This document shows, in pieces, positions 36,947 through 50,890 of a stretch of 64,000 nt of DNA. Origin of the DNA: Clostridium algifaecis (GTDB taxonomy: Bacteria > Bacillota > Clostridia > Clostridiales > Clostridiaceae). The DNA lies in assembly GCF_017874415.1 (NCBI RefSeq), contig NZ_JAGGLM010000005.1, positions 62,001 through 126,000 on the forward strand, in the 5' to 3' direction. The notes beneath the pieces were generated by a model. The model saw nothing but the letters and a program-made list of their open reading frames with translations, was not told where the DNA came from and did no database searches. Every line of letters starts with the position of its first letter. Within the stretch, counting starts at the first letter, position 1. The translations under genes were made by a program, and so were the position numbers.

Positions 36947-37873
36947 ATGATTATTACATGTGATGAACTATTGAATAATTATAGAAACAAGAAATGTAAG
37001 AAAAAATCAAAAAAGATGAATTTTATAGGCATATTTAACAAGAATGTTTATAATATAACTGCTCCTTTTTATAATAAAGGAAAAGTGGTTATAGCAGGAA
37101 GAGTTGAGTCAAGGAGAACCAATGATTCTATGGTATTATTCTTTGAAGAATATAAAGATGCATGGTGCCATATAATAGAATCACCTGTTATAAATCTTGA
37201 AGATCCATTTTTTACAAGGATAGGCAATGAAATGGTAATAGGTGGAGTAGAAGTATTTAAAGACATAAATAATCCAAATGATCTCATATGGAGAACAATA
37301 ATGTATAAAGGTAGTGACATCTTTAACTTAAAGCTTTTCTTTGTGGGTCCGGATGGAATGAAGGATTTACGTATAACGGAGTTAAAAGATGGAACAATAG
37401 GAGTATTTACCCGACCACAGGGAAGTAAAGGTGGAAGAGGAAAAATAGGTTTCACGAAAATTAAGAGATTAAATGATTTAAGCATAGGGGTAATTCAAGA
37501 TGCACCTATATTAAATGATTTTTTTAATGACGACGAATGGGGTGGAATCAATAGTATATATCCTATTGATAATGACAATATAGGACTTTTAGGACATATA
37601 GCCAAGATGGATGAATCTGGAATAAAACATTATTATCCAATGACATTTGTTTTAGATATTAATTCCTTAAAATACAAGGACGTACAGATAATTGCAGAGC
37701 GAGAAGATTTCCTCCCAGGTCCAAGCAAGGACGTGAGCTTGTATGATGTAGTATTTAGCGGAGGACTTGAATTTAAAGATAAAAAAGCAATTTTGTTTGC
37801 GGGCATAAGTGATATTGAGGCACAGACAATTGAAATAGACAATCCATTTTATGAATATATGCATGAAAATTAA
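36947..37873 (+). CDS. DUF1861 family protein (GH130-like beta-propeller)
   Basis: A 308-residue protein matching DUF1861 by the blocks YNITAPFYNKGKVVIAGRVE, DPFFTRIGNEMVIGGVEVF, GMKDLRITELKDGTIGVFTR, GGRGKIGFT, EWGGINSIY and DVVFSGGLEF. The repeated strand pattern suggests a five-bladed propeller related to GH130 phosphorylases. No function is established to my knowledge; pairing with a GH130 gene 21 bases downstream suggests mannoside or other oligosaccharide handling. No signal peptide, so intracellular. Confidence 0.75.
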   Translation: MIITCDELLNNYRNKKCKKKSKKMNFIGIFNKNVYNITAPFYNKGKVVIAGRVESRRTNDSMVLFFEEYKDAWCHIIESPVINLEDPFFTRIGNEMVIGGVEVFKDINNPNDLIWRTIMYKGSDIFNLKLFFVGPDGMKDLRITELKDGTIGVFTRPQGSKGGRGKIGFTKIKRLNDLSIGVIQDAPILNDFFNDDEWGGINSIYPIDNDNIGLLGHIAKMDESGIKHYYPMTFVLDINSLKYKDVQIIAEREDFLPGPSKDVSLYDVVFSGGLEFKDKKAILFAGISDIEAQTIEIDNPFYEYMHEN

Positions 37874-37894
37874 ATATAGTGGGGGAACACCAAT

Positions 37895-38941
37895 ATGAAA
37901 AGATATGAGAATAATCCTATTATAACTTTTAAAGACGTGAAACCATCAAATAAAAATTTTCAGGTTATAGGAGCATTTAACCCGGGAGCAGCTGAATATA
38001 ATGGTGAAATAATACTTGCCGTAAGAACAGCTGAAAGGGTAAGAGAATCAAATGATGATTGTATTAAAGTACCAGTTTTAGATGAAAATAGCCAGTCCAT
38101 AAAGATTGTTGAATTAAATACTAATGATAAAAAGTATGATTTTAGCGACTCAAGAGTAGTTAAAGAAGTGGGCAGTGATTCGGATTTTAAATATCTTACT
38201 TCAATGTCACATATAAGACTTGCAAGGAGCAGAGATGGCATAAATTTTAAGGTAGATGAAAAACCTTTTATCTTTCCTGGAAATAAATATGAAGGTTTTG
38301 GTATTGAAGATCCTAGAATAAGCAAAATAGATGATATTTATTATATTACGTATAGTGCTGTATCAAAATATGGTATAGTAGTAAGTTTGGCTGCAACCAG
38401 TGATTTCAAAAGTTATAGAAGATTAGGCAATATTTTTAGTACCGAGAATAAGGATGCAGTTCTTTTTCCAGAGAAGATTAATGGAAAGTATTTTGCATTA
38501 AACAGACCTGTATCTAAAAGTTCAGGAAAACCTGTAATATGGATATCAGAATCTAAAAATTTAATTGATTGGGGAAATCATAAGGTATTAGCCTGTACTA
38601 GGGAAAGGTATTGGGATTCAAGTAAAATAGGGGCGGGAATACCACCTATAAAAACTGAAAGAGGATGGCTTGAACTTTATCATGGAGTGGATGAGAATGA
38701 ACACTATTATATGGGAGCACTGCTGCTTGATATTAATGATCCGTCTAAAGTGATTTCAAGAAGTGAAAAGCCAATACTTGAACCAAAGGAAAATTATGAA
38801 ACAGAAGGATTTTTCAAGAATGTAGTTTTTCCTTGTGGTGCTGTTAAAAAGAATGATGAAATTTATATATATTATGGAATATCTGATAATTCTGTTGCAT
38901 TAGCCATGACAAAAACAGAAGATATTTTAAGAAATCTTTAA
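37895..38941 (+). CDS. Glycoside hydrolase family 130 protein (mannoside phosphorylase-like)
   Basis: GH130 enzymes act mostly as phosphorylases on beta-mannosides, releasing mannose 1-phosphate. The family start NNPIITFKDV and GAFNPGAAEYNGEIILAVRTAER, in part, are present, as are ARSRDGINF, the catalytic-Asp region GIEDPRISKIDDIYYITYS and GAGIPPIKTERGWLELYHGVD. Length 348 is normal. It is cytoplasmic. Its stop lies 15 bases before the sigma-54 activator start, so both belong to one transcript with DUF1861. Confidence 0.87.
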   Translation: MKRYENNPIITFKDVKPSNKNFQVIGAFNPGAAEYNGEIILAVRTAERVRESNDDCIKVPVLDENSQSIKIVELNTNDKKYDFSDSRVVKEVGSDSDFKYLTSMSHIRLARSRDGINFKVDEKPFIFPGNKYEGFGIEDPRISKIDDIYYITYSAVSKYGIVVSLAATSDFKSYRRLGNIFSTENKDAVLFPEKINGKYFALNRPVSKSSGKPVIWISESKNLIDWGNHKVLACTRERYWDSSKIGAGIPPIKTERGWLELYHGVDENEHYYMGALLLDINDPSKVISRSEKPILEPKENYETEGFFKNVVFPCGAVKKNDEIYIYYGISDNSVALAMTKTEDILRNL

Positions 38942-38956
38942 TGGAGAGTGAATTTG

Positions 38957-41059
38957 TTGATTGAAAAAACTATTGTGATTAATCACGGAAAAGGAATTCA
39001 TGCCAGGGCTGCGGCTTCCATAGTTCATAGGACTAATGATATACAAGGAAAATATGGTGTAGAAATTTTTATAAGTGCTAAAGATAGAAAAAAGGTATCT
39101 GCAACAAGCTTGATGCCGCTTGTAAATTTAAAAATCAAAGATAAGGAAAAAATAATTATTCAGGTACAGGGCAAGGATGAAACAGCTGCACTGGATGATG
39201 TAGTAGATTTTTTCAAGAAGGATTTTGGACTAAATGATAATAATACCATAAATCAAATTGATAATATCATAGATAATAGTGTCATTACTATGGGACAAAT
39301 ATTTCAGAATATAGTAAATGGAATTATAGTAACTGATGAAAAAGACAATATAATAATTTTTAATTCTATTGCGGAAAAATTTTTTGGTATACAGGAAAAC
39401 GCGGCTATAGGTAAAAAAATAAATGAGGTTATAGAAAATTCAAGGCTTAATGTAGTAAATAACACGGGAAAATCTGAACTCATGATAAAACAAGTTATAG
39501 GGGAAAGAATTGTTCTTATAAACAGGACTCCTGTTGTAATTGATGGAAAAGTAAAAGGGGCAATTGGAATATTTCAAGATATATCAAGCTTTGAAAAAGT
39601 AAAATTTGAATTGGATGAAGTAAAGGAGCTTCAAAAAAGACTACAGCTAATACTTCAATCTGTACAGGATGGTATATGTTTTATAGATGCAAAAGGAAAT
39701 ATAAACTATGTAAATGATGCCTATATAAATATACTTGGTATCAGCAGAAATGATATACTTGAAAAGAATATCAGGGAAATATCTCCAAATGGAGCAAGGC
39801 ATAAAGTATTAGTTAGTGGAAAAAGTATAAATAATGCCATAATTAAAAAAGAAAATGGAATAACTGTAATTTCTAATATAAATCCTGTAGTTGTAGATAA
39901 TAAAATTATAGGAGTTGTGTCTGTAGTAAAAAATTTAAAGCAGGTTGAAAAATTAACTGAAAAACTCAGTAAGGTATCGGCTAAAGCTGAATATTTAGAA
40001 GAGGAACTTATAAGAACCAAGAAGCCTGAAATGGTGTTTTCGAATTTTATTGGCAAAAGTGGCAAAATAATTGATGCACTTTCGATTGCATTAAAGGCTG
40101 CCCAAAGTAATGCCACTATTTTAATAAGAGGTGAAAGCGGTACAGGAAAAGAACTTATTGCAGAAGGAATCCATTATGCAAGTACAAACTATAAGGGACC
40201 TTTTATAAGAGTGAATTGTGCAGCTATACCTAAAAATCTCTTAGAAAGTGAGCTATTTGGACATGAAAAAGGTGCATTTACGGGTGCTATAAAGAGAAAA
40301 CTTGGTAAATTTGAATTAGCACAAAATGGTACTATGTTTTTGGATGAGATAGGCGAGCTGGAAAAAGATATGCAATCTAAGATTTTAAGGGCTATACAGG
40401 AAAAAGAATTCCAAAGAGTTGGAGGAGAAAAGACAATAAAAATAAATGTTAGAATAATAGCTGCAACAAATAGAAATTTAGAGGAAATGGTAAAGAAGGG
40501 TGAATTTAGAGAAGACCTATATTATAGATTAAATGTAATTCCAATATTTTTGCCGCCTCTTAGAGATAGAAAACAGGATATAGCACTGCTTGTGGAACAT
40601 TTTATGAACAAGTTTAAGAATTTTAGGAATAAAAAGATACGTGGAATTACAAATGAGGCTATGGAAGCTATTCTCAGCTATCCATGGCCTGGCAATGTGC
40701 GTGAACTTGAAAACTTGTTTGAGAGATTATATGCTCTAGTAGATGGTGAATATATTACAATAGATGATATGCCACCTTATATATGTGGAACAAAGCTAAA
40801 TAATAAATGCAAGATTGAAGATAGAAAAAATGTATGCAGCGAGGAAAAAATAGATTCAATAAGCAGGAGAATTTTAGATGAAGACGATGTACTGGCAATG
40901 AAAGATTATGAAAAACTTATAATAGAAAAAGCACTTAAAAAGTATGGAAGCTATAATGCAGCAGGAAAAGCGCTTGGACTGACACATAAAACTATAGCAT
41001 CTAAGGCAAGAAAATATAACTTGGAGAAAAAAATAAGCTGGGAAAAAGTATCAAGGTAA
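38957..41059 (+). CDS. Sigma-54 activator with N-terminal HPr domain and two PAS domains (DhaR-like)
   Basis: Four modules are visible in 700 residues. Residues 1-85 are an HPr domain: GKGIHARAAASI with His15 and Arg17 intact (Pro18 of classic HPr is Ala) and a Ser46-like region TSLMPLVNL. Two PAS domains follow (about 110-215 and 230-325). The AAA+ domain has Walker A GESGTGKE, the sigma-54-contacting GAFTGA and Walker B MFLDEIGE. A Fis-type helix-turn-helix (NAAGKALGLTHKTIASKARK) ends the protein. TTG 38957 puts the HPr histidine at residue 15. It lies directly before a -24/-12 promoter and dhaKLM, so it is probably their activator; E. coli DhaR has PAS and AAA+ but, as I know it, no HPr part. 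Confidence 0.88.
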   Translation: MIEKTIVINHGKGIHARAAASIVHRTNDIQGKYGVEIFISAKDRKKVSATSLMPLVNLKIKDKEKIIIQVQGKDETAALDDVVDFFKKDFGLNDNNTINQIDNIIDNSVITMGQIFQNIVNGIIVTDEKDNIIIFNSIAEKFFGIQENAAIGKKINEVIENSRLNVVNNTGKSELMIKQVIGERIVLINRTPVVIDGKVKGAIGIFQDISSFEKVKFELDEVKELQKRLQLILQSVQDGICFIDAKGNINYVNDAYINILGISRNDILEKNIREISPNGARHKVLVSGKSINNAIIKKENGITVISNINPVVVDNKIIGVVSVVKNLKQVEKLTEKLSKVSAKAEYLEEELIRTKKPEMVFSNFIGKSGKIIDALSIALKAAQSNATILIRGESGTGKELIAEGIHYASTNYKGPFIRVNCAAIPKNLLESELFGHEKGAFTGAIKRKLGKFELAQNGTMFLDEIGELEKDMQSKILRAIQEKEFQRVGGEKTIKINVRIIAATNRNLEEMVKKGEFREDLYYRLNVIPIFLPPLRDRKQDIALLVEHFMNKFKNFRNKKIRGITNEAMEAILSYPWPGNVRELENLFERLYALVDGEYITIDDMPPYICGTKLNNKCKIEDRKNVCSEEKIDSISRRILDEDDVLAMKDYEKLIIEKALKKYGSYNAAGKALGLTHKTIASKARKYNLEKKISWEKVSR

Positions 41060-41082
41060 AAAATATCATATTGATACTTTTT
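41043..41082 (+). terminator. Inverted repeat over the activator stop codon
   Basis: Bases 41043-41054 pair perfectly with 41071-41082 (12 bp, 16-base loop) and the right arm ends in a short T-run. The stop codon lies in the loop. It may be a terminator; as it lies about 50-90 bases upstream of the sigma-54 promoter, the two arms could instead be activator-binding half-sites. Confidence 0.5.
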
Positions 41083-41127
41083 ACTATAGCTGTTTTTAAG
41101 AATATCCTATAAATAAGGTATTAATCC

Positions 41128-41143
41128 TGGCATGAATTTTGCT
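41128..41143 (+). promoter_or_regulatory. Sigma-54 (-24/-12) promoter of dhaKLM
   Basis: TGGCATGAATTTTGCT matches the consensus TGGCAC-N5-TTGCW with one change; the GG (41129-41130) and GC (41141-41142) are 12 bases apart as required. Transcription would start near 41154, 72 bases before dhaK. The preceding gene is a sigma-54 activator. Confidence 0.85.
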
Positions 41144-41225
41144 TAAATATATTTGTGTTAATAAACTTGATTTTAATTTATAAGATTATTTTTAATAGAA
41201 TTATTAAAACTGGAGGAATTTTATA

Positions 41226-42224
41226 ATGAAAAAAATGATTAATAATCCTGAAAATGTTTTAAGTGAAATGCTTGAAGGCATAGCAAAGGCACATCCTGAA
41301 TATTTAAAGAAACTTGAAAATGCAAATGTACTGGTGAGAACTGACTTGAGTAAAAATAAAGTTGCTCTTGTAAGTGGTGGAGGAAGCGGACATGAGCCTG
41401 CTCATGGTGGATATGTGGGGGAAGGAATGCTTGATGCAGCAGTTGCAGGAGAAGTATTTACATCTCCAACTCCAGATCAGGTTTATGAGGCAGTAAAAGC
41501 AGTTGATAGAGGGAAAGGCGTTCTTCTGGTTATTAAAAATTACAGCGGAGATGTAATGAATTTTGATATGGCAAAAGATATGGCTGAAATGGATGGAATA
41601 AAAGTAGAATCAGTAGTTGTAAATGATGATGTTGCTGTAGAGAATAGTACATTTACAACAGGAAGAAGAGGAATTTGTGGTACTGTTTTTGTTCACAAGA
41701 TTGCAGGAGCTGCAGCTGAAGCCGGACTTGAACTTGAAGATGTAAAAAGAGTAGCTGAAAAAGTAATATCAAATGTTAGAAGTATGGGTATGGCACTTAG
41801 TTCCTGTACTGTTCCAGCAGCAGGAAAACCAAATTTTAAACTTCCTGAAGATGAAGTAGAAATTGGTATGGGCATACATGGAGAACCAGGTACTCACAGA
41901 GAAAAAATTAAAACTGCAGACGAAACTACAGAACATATGTTAGATAAAATATTAAAAGATATGCCATTAAATTCAGGAGATGAAGTTGCAGTAATGGTGA
42001 ATGGAATGTGCTCTACTCCACTAATGGAACTTTATATTGTAAATAGAAAAGTAAATGAAATTTTAAGTGCTTTAGGTGTTAAAATTCATAAGACATTTGT
42101 GGGTGAATATATGACTTCACTTGAAATGGCTGGATTTTCTATAAGTGTATTGAAATTGGATTCAGAGCTTAAAAAGTTTTTGGGGGATACTGCAAATACA
42201 CCTGCATTTAAATTAATAAAGTAA
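41226..42224 (+). CDS. dhaK: Dihydroxyacetone kinase subunit DhaK
   Basis: Binds dihydroxyacetone covalently through a histidine and receives phosphate from DhaL-ADP. Family marks are NVLVRTDLSKNKVALVSGGGSGHEPAHGGYVG, given here in two parts (start and glycine loop), VLLVIKNYSGDVMNF, and GMGIHGEPGTHRE near residue 215, which contains the substrate-binding histidine. Length 332 matches PTS-type DhaK rather than the ATP-dependent fused kinase. First gene behind the sigma-54 promoter; dhaL follows after 22 bases. Confidence 0.96.
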   Translation: MKKMINNPENVLSEMLEGIAKAHPEYLKKLENANVLVRTDLSKNKVALVSGGGSGHEPAHGGYVGEGMLDAAVAGEVFTSPTPDQVYEAVKAVDRGKGVLLVIKNYSGDVMNFDMAKDMAEMDGIKVESVVVNDDVAVENSTFTTGRRGICGTVFVHKIAGAAAEAGLELEDVKRVAEKVISNVRSMGMALSSCTVPAAGKPNFKLPEDEVEIGMGIHGEPGTHREKIKTADETTEHMLDKILKDMPLNSGDEVAVMVNGMCSTPLMELYIVNRKVNEILSALGVKIHKTFVGEYMTSLEMAGFSISVLKLDSELKKFLGDTANTPAFKLIK

Positions 42225-42246
42225 ATTGTAAAGGGAGCCTATTATT

Positions 42247-42873
42247 ATGATATCTGGAGAAAAAGTAATTCAAATAATAAATGAAATAGCAGATAAAATT
42301 GAAGAAAATAAATCTTATTTAACGGAACTTGATGCTGCAATAGGAGATGGAGACCATGGTCTTAATATGAGTAAGGGATTCAGAGCAGTTAAAGAAAAGT
42401 TAAAAGATGATGATGGTAAAAATATAGGAAATATATTTAAAAAAACTGGAATGGCCCTTGTATCGAATGTAGGCGGTGCATCAGGACCGCTTTATGGAAC
42501 TGCTTTTATGAAGGCAGCTGTCGTAGTTTCTGGAAAAGATAATATGGACATTGATGATTTTATAAATGTACTTAAAGCATCAATTGATGGTGTTGTAATG
42601 AGAGGAAAAGCACAAGCAGGAGACAAGACTATGTTGGATTCATTGATACCAGCATACGATGCAGCAAAAAAGGCAAAAGATGATGGAAAAGATGAAAAAG
42701 AAATATTAAAAGAAGTAAGTACAGCTGCAATTAATGGAGCTGAAGACACTAAAAAGATAGCAGCAAGAAAAGGAAGGGCAAGTTACCTTGGAGATAGAAG
42801 CATAGGGCATAAAGATCCAGGAGCAACTTCGAGTGCTATTATACTTGAAACTGTTTATAATTTTATAAAATAA
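42247..42873 (+). CDS. dhaL: Dihydroxyacetone kinase subunit DhaL
   Basis: Nucleotide-binding subunit carrying permanently bound ADP, which is rephosphorylated by DhaM. The metal/ADP site is visible as LDAAIGDGDHGLNMSKGF (Asp cluster and His) and GGASGPLYGTAFM; GDKTMLDSLIPA and GRASYLGDRSIGHKDPGA complete the pattern. 208 residues. In E. coli DhaL-ADP also stimulates DhaR, so it could signal here to the linked activator. Confidence 0.96.
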   Translation: MISGEKVIQIINEIADKIEENKSYLTELDAAIGDGDHGLNMSKGFRAVKEKLKDDDGKNIGNIFKKTGMALVSNVGGASGPLYGTAFMKAAVVVSGKDNMDIDDFINVLKASIDGVVMRGKAQAGDKTMLDSLIPAYDAAKKAKDDGKDEKEILKEVSTAAINGAEDTKKIAARKGRASYLGDRSIGHKDPGATSSAIILETVYNFIK

Positions 42874-42903
42874 TGACTTTAAACTAGAAAGGAGAGATTT
42901 ATA

Positions 42904-43293
42904 ATGGTAGGTATAGTTTTAGTTTCACATAGTCCAAAGGTTGCAGAAGGAATAAAAGAACTTTCTCTCCCTATGGCAGGTGATGTAAAAATTGAAGCGG
43001 CAGGAGGAACTGAAGATGGAAGGCTTGGAACTGATGTAAATAAGATTGTTGAAGCTATAGAAAAGGTATATTCCGATGATGGGGTTATAATATTATTTGA
43101 TCTTGGAAGTTCCTATATGAATGCGCAGATGGCAATAGAATTTTTGGATGAGAGTAAGCAAAAAAATGTTGAAATAGTTGATTGTGCTTTTGTAGAAGGA
43201 GCTATTACAGCAGCTGTTGAAAGTAGTTTAGATAAAAGCATGGAGGAAGTAAAAAATTCAGTTAAAAGCATGGAGCTTGGAAAAATGCCGTGA
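42904..43293 (+). CDS. dhaM: PTS-dependent dihydroxyacetone kinase phosphotransferase DhaM
   Basis: EIIA-mannose-type domain of 129 residues that passes phosphate from HPr to DhaL-ADP. The active-site histidine is His9 in VLVSHSPKVAEG; GGTEDGRLGTDV and VIILFDLGSSYMNA are family blocks. It lacks the HPr and EI-like domains fused to E. coli DhaM, so phosphate must come from a separate HPr. The HPr domain of the linked activator is a possible exchange partner. Confidence 0.94.
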   Translation: MVGIVLVSHSPKVAEGIKELSLPMAGDVKIEAAGGTEDGRLGTDVNKIVEAIEKVYSDDGVIILFDLGSSYMNAQMAIEFLDESKQKNVEIVDCAFVEGAITAAVESSLDKSMEEVKNSVKSMELGKMP

Positions 43294-47845: not shown

Positions 47846-48649
47846 TTGAAAGATTGGCTTTTAAAAAAAGATGATTACATACCTGAAAAAGATTCGGACA
47901 AGTTTATAGACAAAAGTATATTCTCTATTTTAAAGGTTTTGTCACTTATCAAAAGAAGAAATAAATTAAAAAGTGGGTTTATATATAAAATAAATCCAGT
48001 TATAAAACTTATATTTATGATTTTAAATATAGTATTTTTATCTGTATCTAGAAATTTTATGTATGTAATTGCTGTGGATATATATTTTTTATTACTCCTC
48101 AGTTCTTTGGATGCAGATGAAATAAAAAATATACTTATTTTAAGCATGATTGTACCAATCTTTACTCTTATAATGCTTATACCTTCAATATTAACGGGAA
48201 ATATTATAAATAGTTTTATTCTTATATCTAAGATATTTGGAACTATAATGATTGTAAATATATTTTCTTGTACCACGAAGTGGAGTTATATAACAAGATC
48301 TTTAAAAGTATTTTTTATACCGGATATATTTATATTGGTATTTGATATAACTATAAAATACATTTATATTTTGGGCCAATTTGCGTTAAATATGTTTTAT
48401 TCTTTAAAACTTAAATCAGTTGGAAAGAATAATAAAAAATATTCTTCAGTACCTAAAATAATTGGAACTCTATTTTTAAAGTCAAATGAAATGGGTGAAG
48501 AAATGTATTCTGCTATGGAATGCAGGGGATTTACCGGAGAATATAAAAATTTTTCTAAATTTAAGTTTACAATGTCGGATTTATTATATTGTATAATCAG
48601 TATACTTGTTATAGCGTTGTATTTTTACATGGCAGGAGTGAAGGTTTAA
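47846..48649 (+). CDS. cbiQ: Cobalt ECF transporter transmembrane subunit CbiQ
   Basis: Energy-coupling membrane component linking the ATPase to the metal-binding subunit. Five or so spans lie between residues 50 and 265. The helical coupling region carries the family motif EMGEEMYSAMECRGFTGEY (an A-[ML]-x-x-RG variant that contacts CbiO). TTG start after AGGGGGG. cbiO begins right after the stop codon. The metal-binding CbiM and CbiN are not in this window. Confidence 0.87.
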   Translation: MKDWLLKKDDYIPEKDSDKFIDKSIFSILKVLSLIKRRNKLKSGFIYKINPVIKLIFMILNIVFLSVSRNFMYVIAVDIYFLLLLSSLDADEIKNILILSMIVPIFTLIMLIPSILTGNIINSFILISKIFGTIMIVNIFSCTTKWSYITRSLKVFFIPDIFILVFDITIKYIYILGQFALNMFYSLKLKSVGKNNKKYSSVPKIIGTLFLKSNEMGEEMYSAMECRGFTGEYKNFSKFKFTMSDLLYCIISILVIALYFYMAGVKV

Positions 48650-49375
48650 ATGATAGAGTTTAAAGATGTCTGTTTTAATTATAATGATCTTCAAGTAATT
48701 AAGAATATAGATATAGATATAAAAGAAGGGGAATCAGTTGCACTTATAGGAGCTAATGGAAGTGGGAAATCAACATTTCTAAAACTTGTAAATGGAATTA
48801 TATTCCCTTCAAGTGGAAATTATTTGTTTGATAATATAAATATATGTAAAAAAAAGCTTGATGATTCAAAGTATTCCAAATCATTTCATAAAAGAGTTGG
48901 ATTTGTATTTCAAAATTCAGATTCTCAGCTATTTTGTCAGAATGTATATGAAGAAATTGCATTCGGTCCAAGGCAGATGGGAATGGATGAAAAAGAGGTT
49001 AGGATGAGAGTAGATGATTGCCTGAATTTACTTGACATATATGATTTGAAGCATAGACAGCCATATAATTTGAGCGGCGGTGAAAAGAAGAAAGTAGCTA
49101 TTGCATCTGTACTTGCACTTAATCCAGAGGTACTTACTTTAGATGAACCTATGAATGGAATAGATCCTAAGGGAAAGAAATTTCTGAGAGAGCTTTTTAT
49201 AAAATTAAATAATGCAGGAAAGACTATAATATGTTCAACTCATGATTTTGAATATGTAAAAGGTGTTTTTAAAAGGGCACTTGTGTTTTCAGAAGATCAC
49301 AGGATAATAAGAGATGATAGTTATGATGCTGTGATAAATGATGATAAATTTTTAATAGAGAATAATATAAAGTAA
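48650..49375 (+). CDS. cbiO: Cobalt ECF transporter ATPase CbiO
   Basis: ABC ATPase of 241 residues. Walker A GANGSGKS (34-41), Q-loop QNSDSQLFCQNVYEEIAFGP typical of ECF ATPases, signature LSGGEKKKVAIA, Walker B VLTLDEPMNGID, and switch His in STHD. Immediately follows cbiQ, so both are translated together. A generic ECF ATPase is possible, but the position at the head of the cobalamin operon points to cobalt. Confidence 0.9.
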   Translation: MIEFKDVCFNYNDLQVIKNIDIDIKEGESVALIGANGSGKSTFLKLVNGIIFPSSGNYLFDNINICKKKLDDSKYSKSFHKRVGFVFQNSDSQLFCQNVYEEIAFGPRQMGMDEKEVRMRVDDCLNLLDIYDLKHRQPYNLSGGEKKKVAIASVLALNPEVLTLDEPMNGIDPKGKKFLRELFIKLNNAGKTIICSTHDFEYVKGVFKRALVFSEDHRIIRDDSYDAVINDDKFLIENNIK

Positions 49376-49402
49376 ATAACTTTGTAATTTTGGAGGGCTT
49401 TT

Positions 49403-50890
49403 ATGGGTAAAATTATGATTCAAGGAACGGGATCGTCCGTAGGAAAAAGTATAATTGTTACAGCTCTTTGCAGGATATTTAAACAGGACGGATATTCTGT
49501 AGCACCTTTTAAGTCCCAAAATATGTCTTTGAATTCATACATAACTTTAGATGGAAAAGAAATGGGACGGGCTCAGGTACTTCAGGCATATGCATGTGGT
49601 CTTGAGCCAGAGGTTTATATGAATCCAATACTTTTAAAGCCTACTTCTGATAAAAAAAGCCAAATAATATTAAATGGTGAGGTTTATGGTAATGCTAGTG
49701 CATTAGAATATCATAATATGAAGACTAAATTTGGAGATATGCTAAAGGAGCATTTTTCAAATTTGGAGAGTAAATTTGACATAGTTGTAATGGAGGGCGC
49801 AGGAAGCCCGGCGGAGATAAATTTAAGGGATAGAGATATTGTAAATATGGGAATGGCAGAGATTGCAGATGCTCCAGTAGTTTTGGTAGGAGATATAGAT
49901 AAGGGCGGCGTATTTGCATCTCTTGCAGGAACCATGCTTCTTTTAAGAGATGATGAAAGGAAAAGAGTACGTGGGACTATAATAAATAAATTCAGAGGTG
50001 ATATAGAAATATTAAAACCAGGGCTGAGTATGTTAGAGGACATAATTAAAGTGCCATGTATGGGAGTTGTACCTTACTTCAATCTTAAGCTGGAGGATGA
50101 AGATGGAGCAATTTCATTTAATAGTAAATGTACAGCTAAACCAATAGATATAGCTGTCATAAAACTTCCACATATATCAAATTTTACAGACTTTGACGCA
50201 TTTAAACAGGAAGATGATGTATCAGTTAGATTTGTCAGCTCTGAGGATGAACTTGGAAGACCTGACATTCTTATAATTCCAGGAAGTAAGAATACTATAG
50301 ATGATTTAATAAAGTTAAGGGAGTGCGGCCTTGAGGACAGTATAAAAGAATATAGTAAAAATGGAATTTTAATAGGAATATGCGGCGGATACCAGATGAT
50401 GGGTACTTCTATAAAAGATCCATATGAAGTCGAAAGCAGTACATTGTATACATATGGAATGGGACTTTTAAACGTGGATACTGTACTTGAAAAAGATAAA
50501 GTTACATCTAGAGTAAAAGGTGAAAGCAAAAATTGTATGGATGGTAATTCAGAAGTATATGGTTATGAAATTCATATGGGGAGTTCGAAATATGGAAAAG
50601 GATCAAAGTCGTTATTTAGTATAAACAGCAAGAATGGAGAAAAGGTGTCCATGGAAGATGGTGCTGTAAATGATAAAAATAATATAATGGGAACTTATAT
50701 TCACGGCGTTTTTGATGGCATAAATTTTAGACAGTACATATTGAATAAAGTAAGAAAAAGCAAAGGCATGTGTACTAGAAAATCAAAAAATTATGAAAAT
50801 TTTAGAGATAAAGAGCTGGATAAACTCGCTGATATAGTTAGAAATAATATAGATATGGATATTATATATGATATAGTTTCAGGAAAATAA
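49403..50890 (+). CDS. cbiP: Cobyric acid synthase
   Basis: Amidates side chains b, d, e and g of adenosyl-cobyrinate a,c-diamide using glutamine and ATP. The N-terminal synthetase domain has [20 protein letters not shown] and [36 protein letters not shown] follows. The C-terminal type-1 glutaminase has the nucleophile Cys in [10 protein letters not shown] and the partner His in YIHGVFD. Length 495 is normal. Also called CobQ. Confidence 0.95.

Follow-up and report, generated by a model that had tools for sequence, protein, structure and literature searches.

The bacterial phosphotransferase system (PTS) is known to control transcription by way of regulators with fused PRD and EII domains. 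In activators of the LevR/CelR type, it is PRD and EII domains that receive phosphate from HPr. The HPr paralogue Crh lacks His15 and is not known to form part of a transcription factor, and DhaR of Escherichia coli, which is not known to carry an HPr domain, senses DhaK and DhaL by contact. Sigma-54 control of dhaKLM has been predicted in Clostridium beijerinckii (PMC6510779, available passages). In the parts of their paper available to us, Nie et al. (2019) name PTS-HPr as one of the regulatory domains found in enhancer-binding proteins (EBPs) of Clostridiales, present those EBPs that lack a receiver domain as binders of small effectors, and predict that a 'DhaQ' regulon comprises dhaKLM and ptsI (PMC6615313); fusions of HPr to sigma-54 activators are not mentioned in the available passages of PMC2405797. 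In this study we examined a stretch of 64,000 nucleotides from Clostridium algifaecis (assembly GCF_017874415.1, contig NZ_JAGGLM010000005.1, positions 62,001 to 126,000 of the forward strand; hereafter the window), in which a gene for a sigma-54 activator with an N-terminal HPr domain precedes dhaK, dhaL and dhaM. We consider it reasonably probable that, in the two-branch family of sigma-54 activators to which this regulator belongs as a member of the dha branch, the HPr domain would act as a phosphorylation switch. Judged from sequence, the system is real, widespread and coherent, and the predicted phosphotransfer switch is well supported by comparison. The elements of the locus, in window positions, are the following.

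38957..41059, + strand: sigma-54 activator with HPr-PAS-PAS-AAA+-HTH architecture, 700 amino acids (aa) from TTG 38957 (mechanical open reading frame from GTG 38948)
38960..39217, + strand: HPr domain of the regulator (PF00381, 1.2e-15)
39299..39937 (approximate limits), + strand: two PAS domains (Pfam)
40049..40546, + strand: AAA+ sigma-54 interaction domain (PF00158, Sigma54_activat, 2.7e-71)
40901..41023, + strand: C-terminal HTH (HTH_50, E 1.4e-9)
41052..41068, - strand: operator-like site TGATATTTTTTACCTTG, lying partly within the end of the regulator gene, an inexact near copy of TGATA-N5-TACCA
41071..41087, + strand: second operator-like site TTGATACTTTTTACTAT, proposed from sequence, in the orientation opposite to the site at 41052-41068
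41127..41143, + strand: -24/-12 promoter CTGGCATGAATTTTGCT, a perfect match to the pattern
41226..42224, + strand: dhaK (TIGR02363, 511.9 bits, cut-off 406.25)
42247..42873, + strand: dhaL (TIGR02365, 261.7 bits, cut-off 138.3)
42904..43293, + strand: dhaM, an EIIA-man domain alone (PF03610; TIGR02364, 142.8 bits, cut-off 98.25)

The start codon TTG 38957 was picked from the sequence, and the numbering of His15 and Arg17 counts from it. The PTS-HPr match in Pfam (57.8 bits, with a cut-off of 23) covers residues 5-90 counted from GTG 38948 and includes both the phospho-acceptor His15 (codon 38999-39001) and Arg17 (codon 39005-39007), in the local sequence GIHAR. A profile built from 17 regulator HPr domains, compared with solved structures, matched HPr and Crh chains (best 1.4e-14), reaching 33 distinct solved sequences that are all named HPr, HPr-related, Crh, NPr, histidine-containing or phosphocarrier proteins; a spurious match was thus ruled out. 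The AAA+ domain bears GAFTGA at 40271-40288 and is accompanied by AAA_lid_14, and no PRD was found among the 24 Pfam families matched in the regulator at E up to 1. Together with its C-terminal HTH, the -24/-12 target site and an RpoN encoded in the genome, the protein shows the features of a bacterial EBP. It was rejected as a plain DhaR, scoring 247.6 bits over residues 205-622 against a cut-off of 551 (NF008485).

The regulator, dhaK, dhaL and dhaM lie in that order on one strand, and all three NCBIfam cut-offs of a PTS-dependent dihydroxyacetone kinase are passed. Within the window, TGGCATGAATTTTGC at 41128-41142 is the sole match to TGGCANNNNNNTTGC with zero mismatches, and genome-wide TGGCAYNNNNNTTGCW gives 13 matches, compared with none for the same pattern read backwards. 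The first-pass annotation of this stretch had recognized the N-terminal HPr domain with its His15 and Arg17, the two PAS domains, the GAFTGA motor, the adjoining sigma-54 promoter and a PTS-type dihydroxyacetone kinase with an EIIA-only DhaM, all of which were recovered by the domain and pattern searches; the HTH, read there as Fis-type HTH_8, falls under the cut-off of that family (10.6 vs 22 bits) and matches HTH_50 instead. Unnoticed at that stage were a ptsI-linked paralogue, the two operator-like sites, and the larger, ptsI-linked half of the family.

The genome of C. algifaecis (2.96 Mb in 53 contigs) contains three HPr matches: a free ptsH, the window regulator, and a second HPr-PAS-PAS-AAA+-HTH protein. 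The latter is a paralogue, 45% identical to the window regulator and divergent from an adjoining ptsI, the gene for enzyme I (EI), which likewise has a perfect -24/-12 site. Besides ptsI, the only other match to the enzyme I family lies in a 900-aa frame that we take to be pyruvate phosphate dikinase, so that ptsI is presumably the only EI gene. HPr kinase and RpoN are both encoded. Seven PTS_EIIA_2 matches were found, and the single other EIIA-man match falls on contig 3, in a frame that bears PRD as well as EIIA domains. That frame (L228:8045-10953 in genome G000; L and G are our handles for loci and genomes) matches PRD, EIIA-man and EIIA_2 and adjoins a 272-aa frame with Sigma54_activat and Sigma54_DBD, the two being, by their domains, a LevR-like regulator in two frames.

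To delimit the family, 206 genomes of the taxonomic family of C. algifaecis were searched with a profile covering the HPr domain plus linker, up to 20 first-look candidates being scored in each genome. The best rows by E-value (E <=1.6e-21; more matches exist) comprise 90 HPr-bearing regulators in 77 of the 206 genomes, with frames of 559-713 aa as scored in this search except for one broken at 185 aa; below this set come a fragment in a 65-aa frame of G175 (3.8e-12) and then free HPr genes from 7.8e-11. The loci of all 88 regulators outside the C. algifaecis genome were inspected, and branches were assigned by BLAST. Twenty regulators are of the window (dha) type, occurring in 20 genomes, and 70 are of the ptsI type, occurring in 69, with both types present in 12 genomes; six of the ptsI-type frames measure 555-578 aa in the inspected loci. 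A separate scan of genome contigs gave six loci, three with the HPr part, and one HPr match listing, whose rows were all frames of free-HPr size, was kept out of the counts. In a tree of the AAA+ and HTH part (67 ptsI-type, 20 dha-type, five non-family and four HPr-less sequences), the dha type lies on one side of a branch with support 99/93 and the ptsI type on another with 87/87, the outgroups being few and distant. The tree does not include L143, whose frame is broken, the EBP of L230, or L180 and L181, in which the cut could not be placed by a GAFTGA.

The gene neighbourhoods follow the same division. All 20 dha-type regulators lie 5' of dhaK-dhaL-dhaM on the same strand, with a glpF-like MIP gene between regulator and dhaK in four of them (L146, L150, L154 and L182). 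Such a gene, which ties the operon to glycerol, also stands in this position at L249, the copy on which the Pfam MIP match was checked. For 67 of the 70 ptsI-type regulators, an EI gene was located on the other strand of the inspected stretch, 191-736 bp away in 66 cases and 2.4 kb off, beyond an HPr gene, in one (L167); of the three without EI, two begin less than 250 bases from a contig end, and the third, L155, is a second copy with no EI within the stretch. At L103 (G098), ptsI is split over two frames. A survey of the class (391 genomes, 19 of them from the same family, the best 10 first-look candidates scored in each) added only five long-frame matches outside the family, all with dha genes. 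One of them, L223 (G227), has the order dhaK-dhaL-dhaM-EI-HPr-regulator on one strand, and by its gene content is a self-contained PTS relay plus its own HPr-bearing regulator; the other four, L224-L227, from another family of the class, all read regulator-dhaM-dhaK-dhaL, with dhaM first. Hence the HPr regulators of both surveys adjoin EI or DhaM, the two contig-edge cases and L155 aside and with one at 2.4 kb. These are the two protein classes with which an HPr exchanges phosphate.

Promoters and operator-like motifs were compared across the same loci. A strict sigma-54 site lies between regulator and dhaK in 15 of the 20 dha loci, including L174 after correction of its dhaK start, and the other five sites have one mismatch; before ptsI, the site is strict in 59/67 regions and carries one mismatch in 6/67. 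Strict sites were absent from shuffles and from reversed sequence, and all one-mismatch sites exceed the 99% point of the best scores from shuffles. The inverted repeat TGATA-N5-TATCA is found in all 67 ptsI regions (shuffled mean 0.22) and in two of the 20 dha regions; conversely, TGATA-N5-TACCA occurs exactly in 11/20 dha regions, with none in shuffles, and in a single ptsI region (1/67). At the level of sequence, the two branches thus differ in their operator-like motif. The element TTGATACTTTTTA, the first 13 bases of TTGATACTTTTTACTAT, is present in 7/20 dha-type and 23/67 ptsI-type regions.

The active site of the HPr domain is strongly conserved, with His15, Gly13 and Ala20 invariant in 90/90 regulators, Arg17 kept in 89/90 and the equivalent of Ser46 in 88/90. 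On average, pairs of HPr domains from the same branch are 51% and 50% identical in the two branches, compared with 30% for pairs that span both. Columns that we take to face EI and EIIA have an entropy of 1.17 bits, compared with 1.88 elsewhere (59 of 10,000 random sets were as low), and they remain more conserved when residues 15 and 17 are removed (461/10,000). This last result, together with neighbouring genes that supply binding partners, would also be expected if the HPr domain were a docking surface only, to which DhaM, DhaK/DhaL or EI bind without phosphotransfer, much as contact serves for sensing in E. coli DhaR. We regard this explanation as improbable, since a plain surface should not require His15, yet all 90 regulators keep it; Crh, which works by contact and lacks His15, also counts against it.

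From the domains, gene neighbours, motifs, promoter sites and conservation described above, we infer phosphorylation of His15, its partners, and DNA binding at the motifs. In the proposed phosphorylation switch, phosphorylated EI would, directly or via free HPr, phosphorylate His15 of the regulator, and the phosphate would pass on to an EIIA, which at this locus is DhaM. In the presence of dihydroxyacetone, DhaKL would drain phosphorylated DhaM and the HPr domain of the regulator would become dephosphorylated; the PAS-PAS linker would pass this signal onward, and the AAA+ ring, positioned at TTGATA-N5-TACCAA-like sites, would open the -24/-12 promoter of dhaKLM. The ptsI paralogue would employ the same switch at symmetric TTGATA-N5-TATCAA sites and would set the level of EI, its own would-be phosphorylating enzyme. 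Provided that the switch exists, taking the unphosphorylated form as the active one is a guess that could fall either way; if it holds, substrate drain would induce both branches, dihydroxyacetone acting on dha and PTS sugars on ptsI. Because the regulator has its own HPr and adjoins enzymes that load or drain such relays, it probably reads sugar-phosphate traffic directly. More tentatively, the members of the family may be terminal acceptors of the PTS chain, whose own HPr would be phosphorylated by EI, the ptsI branch gauging EI in a self-setting loop and the dha branch gauging the drain of DhaM.

A different division of labour would make the PAS domains the main sensor, of a small ligand such as dihydroxyacetone or a glycolytic intermediate, and leave to the HPr domain only catabolite control, for which HPr kinase might act on the residue equivalent to Ser46. 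PAS domains are contained in 357 of 387 one-component Clostridiales EBPs, where they are read as binding small effectors (PMC6615313, available passages), and both the near-invariant Ser46 equivalent and the HPr kinase of the genome are in line with this possibility. It would nevertheless demand different ligands for the ptsI and dhaKLM regulators, which share HPr and PAS, and at least one ptsI-type member (L097, 555 aa) keeps the HPr domain with a single PAS domain; we accordingly give it little credence. That the HPr domain is simply a phosphocarrier feeding DhaM, fused for co-localisation, is very improbable: an extra HPr gene in the dha clusters of L107 and L223 suggests that DhaM may need a dedicated carrier, yet no DhaM adjoins the ptsI-type regulators, a free ptsH is present in the C. 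algifaecis genome, and a transcription factor would be too scarce for bulk phosphate transfer.

A natural co-loss speaks for the phosphorylation switch as well. In two genomes of one genus (G101 and G102, loci L180 and L181), GAFTGA is replaced, the -24/-12 site of ptsI is gone and no match to RpoN was found; both retain the operator at ptsI and the HPr domain with His15 and Arg17 (a Pfam match above cut-off in L180, where this was checked). In these two genomes, the sensing part of the regulator therefore appears to outlive sigma-54. In G175 (L143), the regulator is split over three frames and the rpoN match over two, and the ptsI site has one mismatch, an assembly error being possible.

Several observations weigh against the phosphorylation switch. 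A dha-type orthologue in G002 (L249:5435-6841, 468 aa), missed by the profile, carries Asp at position 15 and Glu at position 17, and Pfam finds neither an HPr nor a PAS domain in it. It precedes glpF-dhaKLM, and the region 5' of glpF retains a strict sigma-54 site but lacks the operator pattern. The joint loss of the HPr histidine and the PAS domains fits a single sensing unit, but the sequence also shows this unit to be dispensable in an activator of this line. Arg17 is replaced by Thr in L174, Pro18 is replaced in 90/90 regulators, the loop before Ser46 is five residues longer, and the HPr domains are only 19% (window) and 29% (paralogue) identical to the free HPr of the same genome. AlphaFold models were uninformative for the HPr domain, which they give with low confidence (block means 25-60, from an alignment of four sequences). 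With regard to DNA binding, both operator-like sites of the window are inexact, and even the relaxed form TGATA-N5-TA[CT]C is found in 14/20 dha regions, six of the 20 having neither operator form. Since Ser46 is kept and HPr kinase is present, a serine switch is also possible. The conservation counts (His15 in 90/90) are themselves biased, because the search profile was built from rows that all carry His15 and few candidates were scored, so that members may be missed. Finally, no experiment on an HPr-bearing activator was found among the best matches in the open-licence literature. The first-pass annotation had proposed that phosphate flux is sensed through the HPr domain; this idea gains from the conservation of His15 despite 30% identity between branches and from the constant neighbours (dhaKLM in 20/20, EI in 67/70), and loses from the G002 orthologue without His15 and Arg17.

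The distribution of DhaM provides a control. DhaM occurs in 73 of the 206 family genomes and the dha-type regulator in 20, so most DhaM-bearing genomes of the family must control DhaM by other means. All 14 genomes with DhaM and a ptsI-type but no dha-type regulator were considered, dhaK being inside the stretch in 12: none of the 12 dhaK genes has a strict sigma-54 site or operator within 1.5 kb, and a looser promoter pattern gave only two matches in the nearest 350 bases, both inside the gene. This argues against a single regulator serving both dhaKLM and ptsI in the family.

Around the window regulator, a DUF1861 gene and a GH130 gene (36947-38941) end 15 bases 5' of it and may be co-transcribed with it; the GH130 product is near beta-1,2-mannobiose phosphorylase but under the cut-off of that family. 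Further along, CbiQ-like and CobB/CobQ-like genes at 47846-50890 (two proteins checked) are possibly the start of a cobalamin cluster.

If the phosphorylation switch is true, HPr as a sensor would let enzyme I address RNA polymerase without any EII, and the ptsI branch, present in 69 of the 206 genomes, would explain how the clostridia of this family adjust the amount of their general PTS enzyme. The genomes without an RpoN match would then constitute a natural experiment, in which the sensor was moved from sigma-54 to another promoter type.

In comparison with described systems, the distinct signalling design suggested by the first-pass annotation is less new than stated: PTS-HPr in EBPs and a dhaKLM/ptsI regulon, that is, part of the parts list and of the regulon, are already in print, and the two-branch structure, the operator split, the active-site conservation and the RpoN-less survivors are absent from the available passages of the same source (PMC6615313). 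The 'DhaQ' EBP group shares its predicted sigma-54 targets, dhaKLM and ptsI, with the HPr regulators, but in those passages no HPr-bearing EBPs are assigned to the group, and two branches or operators, His15 conservation and phosphotransfer are not mentioned (PMC6615313); its single regulon for both targets is at variance with our within-family control (0/12), which argues against one regulator. DhaR of E. coli is likewise a sigma-54-type activator of a dhaKLM operon with AAA+ and HTH domains. LevR/CelR-type proteins are also sigma-54 AAA+ activators tied to PTS phosphate (for LevR, available passages of PMC6510779); the window regulator differs in that no PRD was matched and the acceptor would be its N-terminal HPr domain. 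Crh, whose chains are among the structures matched by the regulator profile, likewise puts the HPr fold to regulatory use.

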